A DNA stretch of 64,000 nucleotides from NCBI GenBank assembly GCA_017626095.1, contig JAGAJL010000009.1, positions 1 to 64,000 on the forward strand, given 5' to 3'. The notes beneath the pieces are model-generated. The model was not told the DNA's origin. It searched no databases and saw only the letters and a list, made by a program, of their open reading frames with translations. Source of the stretch: Lachnospiraceae bacterium. Lineage in GTDB: Bacteria > Bacillota > Clostridia > Lachnospirales > Lachnospiraceae. The translations under genes were made by a program, and so were the position numbers. Position 1 is the stretch's first letter; the number at the start of each line of letters is the position of its first letter. Positions 3-19,822 of the stretch are shown here, in pieces.

Positions 3-77
3 GGTGGGTATAGCGCAGTTGGTTAGCGCGCCAGATTGTGGCTCTGGAGGCCCAGGGTTCGAATCCCTGTATCCACC
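3..77 (+). tRNA. tRNA-His (anticodon GTG)
   Basis: A full cloverleaf can be drawn. The 7-bp acceptor stem pairs 4-10 with 70-76, and the anticodon loop TTGTGGC carries GTG between CCAGA and TCTGG. The T arm contains GGTTCGAATCC. Position 3 is the extra 5' G typical of tRNA-His, opposite C77. CCA is not encoded. It heads a cluster of four tRNA genes. Confidence 0.96.
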
Positions 78-91
78 CTTTTTATTATCAT

Positions 92-163
92 TGGGCTATC
101 GCCAAGCGGTAAGGCACAGGACTTTGACTCCTGCATTCGCTGGTTCGAATCCAGTTAGCCCAG
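92..163 (+). tRNA. tRNA-Gln (anticodon TTG)
   Basis: The acceptor stem TGGGCTA pairs with TAGCCCA. The anticodon loop CTTTGAC is closed by CAGGA/TCCTG, and the T arm is CTGGTTCGAATCCAG. CCA is not encoded. It lies 14 nt after tRNA-His and 7 nt before tRNA-Lys, so the three are probably co-transcribed. Confidence 0.96.
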
Positions 164-170
164 CTATTAT

Positions 171-243
171 GGGCCACTAGCTCAGGTGGTAGAGCACTTG
201 ACTTTTAATCAAGTTGTCCGGGGTTCGAGTCCCCGGTGGCTCA
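171..243 (+). tRNA. tRNA-Lys (anticodon TTT)
   Basis: The acceptor stem GGGCCAC pairs with GTGGCTC. The anticodon loop CTTTTAA is closed by CTTGA/TCAAG, and the T arm is CGGGGTTCGAGTCCCCG. CCA is not encoded. A terminator-like hairpin follows directly. Confidence 0.96.
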
Positions 244-246
244 CTA

Positions 247-279
247 AAATCAGAAGCAGGCAGCCTCTGATTTTTTTTA
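247..279 (+). terminator. terminator-like hairpin between tRNA-Lys and tRNA-Leu
   Basis: AAATCAGA (247-254) pairs with TCTGATTT (266-273) and is followed by a run of T to 278. It would end the His-Gln-Lys transcript. The next tRNA begins only 13 nt later with no room for a promoter in between, so read-through or a promoter inside the upstream genes must supply tRNA-Leu. Confidence 0.65.
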
Positions 280-291
280 TGAATATTTCAT

Positions 292-372
292 GCGGATATG
301 GCGGAATTGGCAGACGCGCCAGATTTAGGTTCTGGTGTCCCCGACGTGCAGGTTCAAGTCCTGTTATCCGCA
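292..372 (+). tRNA. tRNA-Leu (anticodon TAG)
   Basis: The acceptor stem GCGGATA pairs with TATCCGC. The anticodon loop TTTAGGT carries TAG between CCAGA and TCTGG. A long variable arm (GTGTCCCCGACGTGC region) marks it as class II, and the T arm is CAGGTTCAAGTCCTG. CCA is not encoded. Confidence 0.96.
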
Positions 373-6105: not shown

Positions 6106-6606
6106 TTAAGCGCGGCTCATATTCGAATTATGGTAGGCGGGATTGTTTGTAACATCCTCTAAAAACCAGTCGGGCATGAGGAATGCGGTGGCAAGTTCGA
6201 CAGAAGGAAATTCGATCTCTGCCATAATCAGCCCCGCAGGAGTTTGAAATAAATCAAGTTCAATTTTCAATTTAAGAGAATCCGGTATGGTATCCATGCC
6301 GGATTTTTTTAATTGTTCTATGTCAAATTGTGGGTTGGCTAACGGGATCAGATAACGGTCTTTTTTTATAATGATTCCATCTGCTTTTTTAATCAGATGA
6401 TCATAGCTTTCTTTGGTTAATGGCAGGTTTGCCTCTTCTCTTGCTAAAAGACCTTTTCCTTTATAGGTAAGATAATAGGTGTCATTTTCCCGTCTGACGC
6501 GAACGACGGGGGCGGTACAAAGATATCCCTGCTCCATATGGAGGCATTCATAGTCATCCAGATTTGCGGGGAGTTGTCGGATTGTAAATTTACGTTCAAT
6601 TTCCAT
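6106..6606 (-). CDS. CYTH-domain (triphosphate tunnel) protein
   Basis: A 166-residue single CYTH domain. The N-terminal MEIERKF holds the ExExK signature (E2, E4, K6), and basic strands such as VVRVRREN and YYLTYKGKG follow, as in the tunnel fold. Family members hydrolyse inorganic triphosphate or thiamine triphosphate or make cAMP. The short single-domain bacterial form is usually a triphosphatase, but the substrate is not shown here. The open frame extends upstream to 6768, into a palindromic repeat. I choose ATG 6606 because AAAGGA lies 9 nt before it and the ExExK motif follows at once. Its stop faces malQ. The repeat element 6632-6862 lies just upstream of the ribosome binding site, so its promoter must be in or beyond that element. 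Confidence 0.85.
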   Translation of the reverse strand: MEIERKFTIRQLPANLDDYECLHMEQGYLCTAPVVRVRRENDTYYLTYKGKGLLAREEANLPLTKESYDHLIKKADGIIIKKDRYLIPLANPQFDIEQLKKSGMDTIPDSLKLKIELDLFQTPAGLIMAEIEFPSVELATAFLMPDWFLEDVTNNPAYHNSNMSRA

Positions 6607-6631
6607 GAGGGTCATTCCTTTCAGAGGGGGT

Positions 6632-6862
6632 GTGGGGGGAAGATATTTTATTTCTTTTGCAAGACTAACGTTGATAAGTTTATCTAAATATTCCGAATAT
6701 AGTTTATCTGTGCCCGTACGCACATGGTGCATAATGGACATCCTGTCCAGATGCACCTTTCGCGACATCCATGTCCCGAAGTGCTGATATACTTACGGAA
6801 TATTAAGATAAACTAATCAACAGCGTCAAATTGCAAGAGAAATAAAATATCGTTTCTCCCGC
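6632..6862 (+). repeat. palindromic structured repeat, copy B2
   Basis: A 231-bp imperfect palindrome. The outer arm GATATTTTATTTC pairs with GAAATAAAATATC; next CTTTTGCAA pairs with TTGCAAGAG; then GTTGATAAGTTTATCT pairs with AGATAAACTAATCAAC and AATATTCCG with CGGAATATT. Between the arms are a hairpin GGTGCAT..TGGACA-TCC-TGTCCA..ATGCACC and a second one, TTCGCGACA-TCCA-TGTCCCGAA. It is clearly homologous to copy B1 at 18934-19153 (opposite strand) and shares interior hairpins with A1 and A2. Nothing in it looks coding. It ends about 10 nt from the CYTH gene's ribosome binding site. Confidence 0.85.
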
Positions 6863-18281: not shown

Positions 18282-18331
18282 TACTTTCTATATGCATATG
18301 TTGAGATGTTTGGGGGATGTCAGGGACGGAC

Positions 18332-18558
18332 GTTTCATGAAAACAGTATTCTTTCGCGTTTAGGTTTCGATGTATAAGCTCATCTAAAGATTTCGTATTT
18401 CGGTTTGTCTATACGGACGCACCGGCGCACCCGGACATCCATGTCCGACGTGCACCTTTCGCAGCATCCATGCTGCGAATTGCTGAAATCGAACGAAATC
18501 TTAAGATGAACTAATACATCTTCACAATAAACGCTCAAAAATACTGTTTTCATGAAAC
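18332..18558 (+). repeat. palindromic structured repeat, copy A1
   Basis: A 227-bp element with perfect 19-bp terminal inverted repeats (GTTTCATGAAAACAGTATT, 18332-18350, against 18540-18558). The palindrome continues inward with mismatches, GATGTATAAG..CATCTAAAGATTTCG against CGAAATCTTAAGATG..CTAATACATC. It encloses two hairpins: GGCGCAC..GGACA-TCCA-TGTCC..GTGCACC, and the perfect 9-bp stem TTCGCAGCA-TCCA-TGCTGCGAA. It is non-coding, lies just downstream of clpX and is in tandem with A2. Confidence 0.85.
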
Positions 18559-18565
18559 TGTGTAC

Positions 18566-18780
18566 TGAAAACAGTATTCTTTCGCATTTAGGCTCTGATG
18601 TATAAGTTCATCTAAAGATTTCGTATCCGGTTAGTCTATACGGACGCACCGGCGCACCCGGACATCCATGTCCGACGTGCACCTTTCGTAGCATCCATGC
18701 TGCGAATTGCTGAAATCGAACGAAATCTTAAGATGAACTAATACATCTTCACAATAAACGCTCAAAAATACTGTTTTCAT
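18566..18780 (+). repeat. palindromic structured repeat, copy A2
   Basis: A near-identical tandem copy of A1. One difference (TTCGTAGCA for TTCGCAGCA) turns a C-G pair of the second hairpin into T-G, which keeps pairing possible in RNA. The right end reads CATAAAACTG, so the outermost bases of the 19-bp terminal repeat differ from A1. Confidence 0.85.
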
Positions 18781-18933
18781 AAAACTGTATCCTGACAATA
18801 TTCAACTATATTGGTAAAACAGTTTCAATAAATAATTGGAAGCATAAGCATATAGAAAGTAGGAAAAACATCATTATATATTTACTTGATGAGAAAAAGT
18901 TTATTAGTAAACTACGTTCGATTTTCGAGCGGC

Positions 18934-19153
18934 GGAAAGATGTTTTGTTTCCCGGTCATTTGGACGCTGTTGATTAGTTTATCTTAATATTCCGAGTGAT
19001 TATCAGCACTTTGCGACATGGATGTCGCAAAAGGCGCATCAAGACAGGATGTCTTTTATGCGCCGTGTGTGTACGGGCATAGATAAACTACATCCGGAAT
19101 ATTTAGATAAACTTATCAACGTTAGTCATGACCGGGAAATAAAATATCTTTCC
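18934..19153 (-). repeat. palindromic structured repeat, copy B1 (inverted)
   Basis: A 220-bp palindrome. GGAAAGATGTTTTGTTTCCC on the left pairs, with few mismatches, with the right end GGGAAATAAAATATCTTTCC. It continues through CGGTCAT/ATGACCG, GTTGATTAGTTTATCT/AGATAAACTTATCAAC and AATATTCCG/CGGAATATT. The interior hairpins are TTTGCGACA-TGGA-TGTCGCAAA and GGCGCAT..AGACAGGATGTCT..ATGCGCC (plus-strand reading). On the minus strand it aligns along its whole length with B2. It ends 79 nt before the engB start codon. Confidence 0.85.
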
Positions 19154-19231
19154 AGAGCGTAAAATAAAGCAGAGCGTAAATCGTAGCAGAGCGTAAAAGG
19201 AAAATGAAAACTAATTAGAAAAGGGTACATT

Positions 19232-19822
19232 ATGGTAATAAAAAGTGTAAATCTGGAGACGGTCTGTGGCATTACCAGTACGCTTCCGGAAAATAGTTTG
19301 CCGGAAATTGCGTTTGCGGGAAAAAGTAATGTCGGAAAATCTTCGCTGATTAACGGACTTATGAATCGTAAAAATTATGCGAGGACTTCTGCGCAGCCGG
19401 GGAAAACGCAGACTATTAATTTTTACAATATTAATAATGAATTGTATTTTGTGGATTTGCCGGGATACGGTTATGCCAATGCCTCAGTGGAAGTGAAGGC
19501 AAAATGGGGTAAGATGATTGAGCGGTATCTGCATACTTCCAGGCAGTTAAAAGCAGTTTTTCTTCTGATTGATATTCGACATGAGCCTTCGGCAAATGAT
19601 GTGCAAATGTATCAGTGGATTATAGAACAGGGATTTATGCCGGTTATTATTGCAACAAAACTGGATAAAATCAAACGTTCCCAGGTTGCAAAGCAAATTA
19701 AACTAATCAAAACCACCCTGTCGATGGGACCGGAAAGCACGATTTTACCCTATTCGGCATTGAGCAAACAGGGGCGGGAAGAGATTTATGAATATATTGA
19801 ATCTTTGTTGGAAACAACATAA
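19232..19822 (+). CDS. engB: ribosome biogenesis GTP-binding protein EngB/YsxC
   Basis: A small GTPase needed for large ribosomal subunit assembly. The 196-residue protein has the G1 motif GKSNVGKSSL (about 31-40), G3 VDLPGYG, G4 ATKLDK and a G5-like SALS. AAAAGGG lies 8 nt before ATG 19232. In many relatives it follows clpX-lon; here it follows clpX after a repeat-filled interval. Copy B1 of the repeat lies immediately upstream. Confidence 0.95.
   Translation: MVIKSVNLETVCGITSTLPENSLPEIAFAGKSNVGKSSLINGLMNRKNYARTSAQPGKTQTINFYNINNELYFVDLPGYGYANASVEVKAKWGKMIERYLHTSRQLKAVFLLIDIRHEPSANDVQMYQWIIEQGFMPVIIATKLDKIKRSQVAKQIKLIKTTLSMGPESTILPYSALSKQGREEIYEYIESLLETT

Follow-up and report, generated by a model that had tools for sequence, protein, structure and literature searches.

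The palindromes of the window match a known RNA family

The window, a stretch of 64,000 nucleotides from a Lachnospiraceae bacterium, contains a group of long palindromes, and the question raised by this locus is whether they are mobile DNA, structured RNA or both. The initial annotation, made from the sequence alone, described three elements within positions 18332-19153 and one at about 6632-6862, each with a long basal stem that encloses two hairpins with TCC or TCCA loops (GGA on the other strand). Both the coordinates and this plan were borne out. It recognized no named family, which is superseded by an Rfam search in which all four palindromes (4/4) matched RF01731 (TwoAYGGAY) with scores of 98.5-103 bits, far above the gathering score of 43. 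The home genome (G000, 86.6% complete) contains 29 RF01731 copies, and all 29 score above this threshold.

The Rfam sense strand is the strand with the GGA loops; A1, A2 and B2 lie on the minus strand and B1 lies on the plus strand. The elements were assigned by reading to two types, type A with an ATGGA-like sequence in both loops and type B with AGGA in the second loop. A1 (type A, 18332-18558, minus strand, core 18362-18527) scores 103 bits and has an extended palindromic stem of 31/30 nt. A2 (type A, 18562-18783, minus strand, core 18590-18754, 100.1 bits) is a close repeat of A1, with approximate outer limits that were set by reading; its automatic stem extension of 44/43 nt is less reliable owing to the sequence that A1 and A2 have in common. 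A spacer (18784-18933) with 26% GC in the tested part and no clear homology to the spacers of non-orthologous pairs separates A2 from B1 (type B, 18934-19153, plus strand, core 18962-19127, 102.1 bits), which is divergent to A2 and has a stem extension of 28/26 nt. B2 (type B, 6635-6860, minus strand, core 6663-6828, 98.5 bits, stem extension 32/28 nt) is a single element. It is sense-orientated and apparently lies directly upstream of a minus-strand ORF that is listed at 6106-6768 with an early start, the likely start by reading being at about 6605. The near-perfect stem reaches about 26-32 nt beyond the Rfam core on each side in A1, B1 and B2, and the basal stem of each window element consists of 60-62 Watson-Crick pairs. 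A row of four tRNA genes is located at the start of the window (4-372).

The exact pattern of the first hairpin was found in 13 stretches, all from two metagenome-assembled genomes of Lachnospiraceae (class Clostridia), and the distribution of RF01731 extends to other families of this class. The genus sample consisted of nine genomes, eight of which have copies; 135 copies were used, three sub-threshold partial matches were left out, and 93 of the 135 were included in the sequence analysis. Two GGA hairpins were detected in 65 of these 93 copies, three in 2 and one in 26, using a strict rule of a 5-bp stem.

The discovery table of 2010 classifies TwoAYGGAY as probably RNA and probably not cis-regulatory, and the accessible part of that paper gives no function for it (Weinberg 2010, PMC2864571). 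Rfam release 15 lists the family as cis-regulatory. In 2014 a paper on motifs put CsrA binding forward as a hypothesis open to testing, on the strength of two motif matches, according to its accessible part (PMC4333381). No mention of mobility was found in the accessible parts of the literature on the family. On balance, we are inclined to think that the window palindromes, as members of TwoAYGGAY, represent the core of a non-autonomous MITE-like transposon which spreads predicted CsrA-binding hairpins.

The elements upstream of engB were inserted and probably partly lost

A1, A2 and B1 are part of a block with approximate ends at 18291 and 19217, located between the terminator-like hairpin of the upstream gene and an engB-like gene (19232-19822, plus strand). 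The latter encodes a protein of 196 aa which has matches of at least 77% identity in all nine genus genomes and which we take to be an EngB/YihA-type GTPase, named by its GKSNVGKSS motif. The block is absent in five of the nine genomes (G155, G153, G156, G150, and G154), in which the region upstream of engB is empty and 61-125 nt long, the figure for G155 including the first codons as a late start was chosen. In G000, G086 and G151 this region is 469-976 nt long and contains RF01731. Empty sites in relatives, which the initial annotation had suggested looking for, are thus found at the engB locus and, judged from this one locus in nine genus genomes, the block in the window is evidently an insertion. 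In G152 (L146) the 333-nt intergenic region upstream of engB contains another long palindrome without a match to RF01731, as if the site attracts such elements. Short tandem repeats, with a unit containing AGAGCGTAAA three times, are present at 19155-19207 of the window; short tandem repeats that differ per locus were also seen at the outer feet of other elements and in the spacer of L040.

Many RF01731 loci are common to G000, G086, and G151, and at four of these aligned loci pieces are missing in one or two of the genomes. G000 lacks the left element of both the C38 and the C43 locus, and at C43 the right element is absent from G151. At the C37 locus the B element is internally shortened in G086. 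At the window locus both G086 and G151 lack the spacer and part of one A element, so that about half of A is left beside B. From the alignments, we read these missing pieces as probable deletions.

The elements are arranged as divergent pairs of two types

Copies of the genus that are at most 700 bp apart are divergent (-+) in 28 of 29 cases; one is in tandem (A1-A2 of the window) and none is convergent. All ten pairs of the home genome are heterotypic and combine an A with a B element (types by reading), with A on the left in seven and B on the left in three. Most orthologous spacers can be aligned, and the spacers of non-orthologous pairs have only stray matches of 11-28 nt in common. In G153 (L152:2226-2891) a divergent pair with a distance of 847 nt encloses a 221-aa ORF which presumably encodes a CPBP membrane protease.

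Most of the pairs take up the region between two genes of the same direction, often with one element directly 3' of a stop codon and its partner directly 5' of a start codon. This location would suit terminators, stabilizers of mRNA 3' ends or RNase III sites, with GGA loops that have no role of their own or are bound by a different protein, and Correia elements in mRNAs are indeed reported to be cut by RNase III in the accessible part of a review on MITEs (PMC10969869). However, no T-run was seen by eye 3' of the stems, and the loop motif, the two-hairpin plan and the spacing of 24-27 nt are kept in most copies, none of which is needed by a plain stem. We consider this explanation rather unlikely.

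Stems change in pairs and evolve slowly in place

The initial annotation had noted compensatory changes between copies, and a covariation test confirmed these. The alignment contained 27 copies of the home genome, two degenerate copies being left out. The RNAalifold structure has 30 pairs, of which 24 show changes on both sides. Pairing was observed in 96.0% of the cells compared to 81.6% in shuffles, and none of 500 shuffles reached any of five covariation measures. When the partner was shifted by one to three columns, pairing fell to only 31-49%. The basal stem and the first hairpin showed a similar covariation picture among the 93 copies from four genomes. Paired change is far beyond chance. 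It had also been noted that a basal segment was replaced as a whole; paired change in the basal segments stands, but the swap looks more like the outcome of drift and compensatory change, given that three or four types of Watson-Crick pair occur in most basal columns of the 93 copies.

To compare copies in place, orthologues were divided into 27 groups, each represented by its most divergent comparison with at least 85% identity; dropping the comparisons below 85% identity reduced their number from 59 to 52. Divergence between orthologues was 2.8% (59/2076) in the 77-nt hairpin core, 4.3% (170/3992) in the basal stem and 14.3% (149/1045) directly outside. The spacers diverged by 12.6% (297/2357; range 0-26%) in 12 comparisons, a set that differs from the element set. 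The divergence of orthologous copies is thus about a third to a quarter of that of the spacers, and this slow change, seen also relative to the flanks, indicates that the elements are held by selection or a comparable force. Sites around the GGA triplets diverged by 3.4% (in a count that includes GGA triplets of the stem), no more slowly than the core with its 2.8%, which on this short timescale argues against the loops having a special role.

A neutral single change in a near-perfect palindrome is expected to give G:T and A:C mismatches equally often. Among the single stem changes we counted 33 G:T and 12 A:C mismatches (p 0.0025), and 60 and 30, respectively, over all 52 comparisons. The excess was present in elements orientated sense (20:7) as well as antisense (13:5) to the next gene. 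Standing mismatches also favored G:T, with 115 vs 68 by self-pairing and, weakly, 143 vs 111 by column alignment. A sign test of the G:T excess per locus was not significant (12 vs 5, 10 ties, p 0.14). The GGA strand had the lower RNA folding energy in 63 of the 93 copies, which are related to each other. Together, these comparisons give moderate support to the suggestion that RNA from the GGA strand is selected in both orientations, and a role as RNA is moderately supported.

The same palindromes could in principle be kept at the DNA level only, with arm-to-arm template switching or correction at replication making the double changes and the RNA having no role. The unusually long and perfect stems, the short tandem repeats read at several outer feet and the non-significant strand test per locus are in line with this, as are the between-species losses inside and between elements at the four loci read, which are expected of unstable palindromes. 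Correction between arms preserves symmetry, whereas the roughly three- to fourfold slower change of core and stems compared to spacers and flanks indicates that the sequence itself is kept. In addition, G:T mismatches exceed A:C mismatches, the GGA strand folds better, and single changes are more numerous than double ones between orthologues. Maintenance at the DNA level only is therefore unlikely in our opinion.

RF01731 is the core of mobile elements in other genomes

Evidence that elements with an RF01731 core are mobile was also obtained outside the genus. In G193, a genome from another family that consists of one contig, a single 303-nt query matched 98 full and partial pieces (E≤1), and four G193 copies have RF01731 scores of 51.8-53.8 bits. 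The G193 unit consists of one element and is about 290 bp long. Eleven near-full copies (10 from G193 and 1 from the sister genome G221) have the terminal inverted repeat CTG-AATTCGTAATAT at both ends, with some bases changed. Ten of these 11 copies are flanked by target-site duplications of 6, 10, 7, 11, 9, 8, 9, 8, 9, and 9 nt and one by 1 nt, while 110 mismatched flank pairs used as a control gave at most 4 nt; for copies and controls alike, the left boundary could be moved by one base. Further G193 end pairs of less than 620 bp were collected with a loose end pattern and inspected by eye. Exact duplications were found at L243 and L258, duplications with one mismatch at L257, L259, and L261, and no clear duplication at L244, L245, L249, L251, and L260; L221 has no target duplication. 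With these ends and duplications the G193 elements are MITEs. Terminal inverted repeats and target duplications are known from G193 and G221, and the corresponding evidence for the window copies consists of their own palindrome and the empty engB site. Two kinds of subtype were seen in G193, a longer one with about 128 extra bases at one point (e.g., C1 383033-383429 and 736182-736577) and short, internally deleted ones of roughly 107-133 bp.

A different unit was found in G143, in which 12 of the 15 copies listed lie at most 335 bp from a contig end. The G143 copies align over up to 523 bp, mostly with 85-97% identity, and their spacers are homologous. The unit is about 975 bp long and consists of an element on the minus strand, a spacer with a central hairpin and an element on the plus strand, as pieced together by reading from overlapping partial copies, none of which spans the whole unit. 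Of 13 unit ends read, seven have ATTCCGG, two a one-base variant and four neither. Mobility is well supported by these data, and the new finding is that RF01731 is the core of MITE-like mobile elements. The MITE-like element and the structured RNA, which the initial annotation offered as alternatives, appear to be true at once, with the conserved RNA structure being the core of a MITE-like element.

An autonomous partner was not identified, either by the searches of the nine genus genomes or in 20 G193 regions; the latter yielded no transposase with matching ends, which the initial annotation had proposed to look for as a further check. A Y1 transposase (PF01797) has a match in five of the nine genus genomes, including G151 and G152, and has no match in G000 (29 copies, 86.6% complete) and G086 (31 copies, 100% complete). 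That the hairpins are single-stranded DNA recognition sites for an HUH/Y1 transposase, as in IS200/IS605 and REPIN/RAYT, is suggested by the inverted heterotypic pairs that resemble BIME/REPIN architecture, by the conservation of the loops on one strand and by the Y1 matches in the five genomes, but is most improbable given the absence of Y1_Tnp from G000 and G086 with their many copies and the terminal inverted repeats with target duplications in G193, which are not known as features of Y1 elements. The label REPIN-like used previously is accordingly not supported, despite the five genomes with a match.

Several candidate partners of the MITE-like elements were examined and rejected. In G151 (C44, L119:1999-3646) an Rpn-family nuclease-like gene (TIGR01784, 42 bits, less than the cut-off of 52.1) is located between two divergent D-type RF01731 elements whose similarity includes the basal stems. 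Related copies are present in L050, L051, and L102. As a general mobilizing partner the Rpn-type nuclease was rejected, as only the G151 and G086 copies adjoin RF01731 among the matches listed for the nine genomes. The CPBP-type ORF within the G153 pair is no transposase. A 95-aa CsrA-like ORF, a 194-aa ORF that we assume to be tyrosine-recombinase-like and an RF01731 copy lie close together in G042 (C54, L163:1477-3140); neither ORF was found in the other RF01731 loci searched. Two 1.52-kb pieces considered as autonomous candidates in G193 are unrelated to each other, and their ORFs are presumably subtilase-like and glycosidase-like. Regarding spread by phages, plasmids or viral contigs, no match was obtained with one 151-nt query or one exact pattern, and an integron attC-like site was dropped on reading of the ends.

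The elements occur together with the flagellar/CsrA module

In the home genome csrA adjoins a putative fliW-like ORF, in a row that also includes a putative flgL-like ORF, and the CsrA protein keeps an arginine after PKEVPIY. The loops ACAUGGAUGU and ACAGGAUGU of the elements resemble the CsrA SELEX site RUACARGGAUGU, each departing from it at R. CsrA bridges sites that are 10-63 nt apart, best above 18 nt, according to the accessible part of the study that also gives the SELEX site (PMC7652899). The gap between the two GGA motifs could be measured in 82 of the 93 copies and has a length of 24-27 nt in 79 of them; two GGA loops at this distance would fit bridging by a CsrA dimer. From these features we infer that the elements bind CsrA.

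The co-occurrence of RF01731 and csrA was analyzed in counts that ignore phylogeny. Among 150 Lachnospiraceae genomes RF01731 was present in 21, and all 21 have csrA, compared to 82 of the 150 overall (80 above cut-off; p 8e-7). In the class sample RF01731 was present in 36 of 391 genomes (27 above cut-off), with csrA in 31 of these 36 and in 125 of 391 overall (Fisher p 2e-12). Copy numbers of RF01731 in the family and class samples are lower bounds as stricter filters were used. No match to CsrA was obtained in five RF01731-positive genomes of the class sample. FliG was found in 35 of the 36 RF01731-positive genomes, after eight weak FliG matches had been removed by hand, and among the FliG-positive genomes csrA makes no significant difference (31/122 vs 4/25, p 0.23). 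The link is therefore with the flagellar/CsrA module as a whole.

Predicted role of the elements and comparison with known systems

According to the explanation that we favor, non-autonomous elements with an RF01731 core would insert between genes, the typical unit in the genus of the window being a divergent pair of a type-A and a type-B element around a spacer. Inserted elements would be kept, their stems changing in pairs and both loops mostly retaining GGA. RNA from the GGA strand is predicted to form a long stem with two hairpins at its top, the GGA loops of which one CsrA dimer could bridge. A sense copy in a 5' UTR may then act as a CsrA-binding leader and may influence the gene behind it. 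In another role, outward transcription of the element from the spacer may produce a small decoy for CsrA. Tentatively, transposition may have written CsrA leaders and decoys into dozens of loci of flagellated Clostridia, which would make the elements a dispersed and mobile counterpart of CsrB and the divergent A/B pairs two outward decoy genes around one promoter region; we regard this extended suggestion as possible rather than probable.

Palindromic units of two types in inverted pairs are also known from REP, BIME and REPIN sequences. Compared to those, the units described here are much longer, have terminal repeats with target duplications and occur in G000 and G086 without Y1. Repeated GGA-loop hairpins resembling the CsrA site are shared with decoys of the CsrB/RsmZ type; in those many sites are present in one RNA, whereas here two sites per element would be distributed over 29 copies. 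Prokaryotic MITEs such as Correia and ERIC are likewise short, non-coding, multi-copy and intergenic, with terminal inverted repeats, target duplications and RNA that is folded when transcribed, some of these traits being covered by the accessible part of the review (PMC10969869). The present elements differ from these in having a conserved core of two GGA hairpins that recurs in units whose ends differ from family to family, and in their divergent paired units. The main text of that review has no mention of CsrA or of terms starting with Clostridi- or Lachnospir-, and a search of the literature, as far as accessible, found no link between MITEs and CsrA. With respect to TwoAYGGAY as described, the window elements are alike by covariance model and by two AYGGAY-type loops on a basal stem. 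The family is described only as probable RNA in the accessible part of its original description (PMC2864571), and here it is tied to mobile elements, an empty site and divergent A/B pairs.

A known RNA family is thus newly placed in mobile elements, and a role related to CsrA is plausible but unproven. As the core of a mobile element, TwoAYGGAY would be expected to occur scattered and in multiple copies, as it does, and this changes the reading of Rfam matches to the family. If the loops bind CsrA, a transposon would be spreading sites for a global post-transcriptional regulator, which controls motility and metabolism, through the Clostridia. The antagonist of CsrA named for the firmicute B. 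subtilis is the protein FliW, in the accessible part of the source (PMC7652899), and the elements, if they act as proposed, would represent a mobile CsrB counterpart in a phylum for which that part names only this protein. On the sense strand, a C-rich tract within about 25 nt 3' of many elements was noted by reading.
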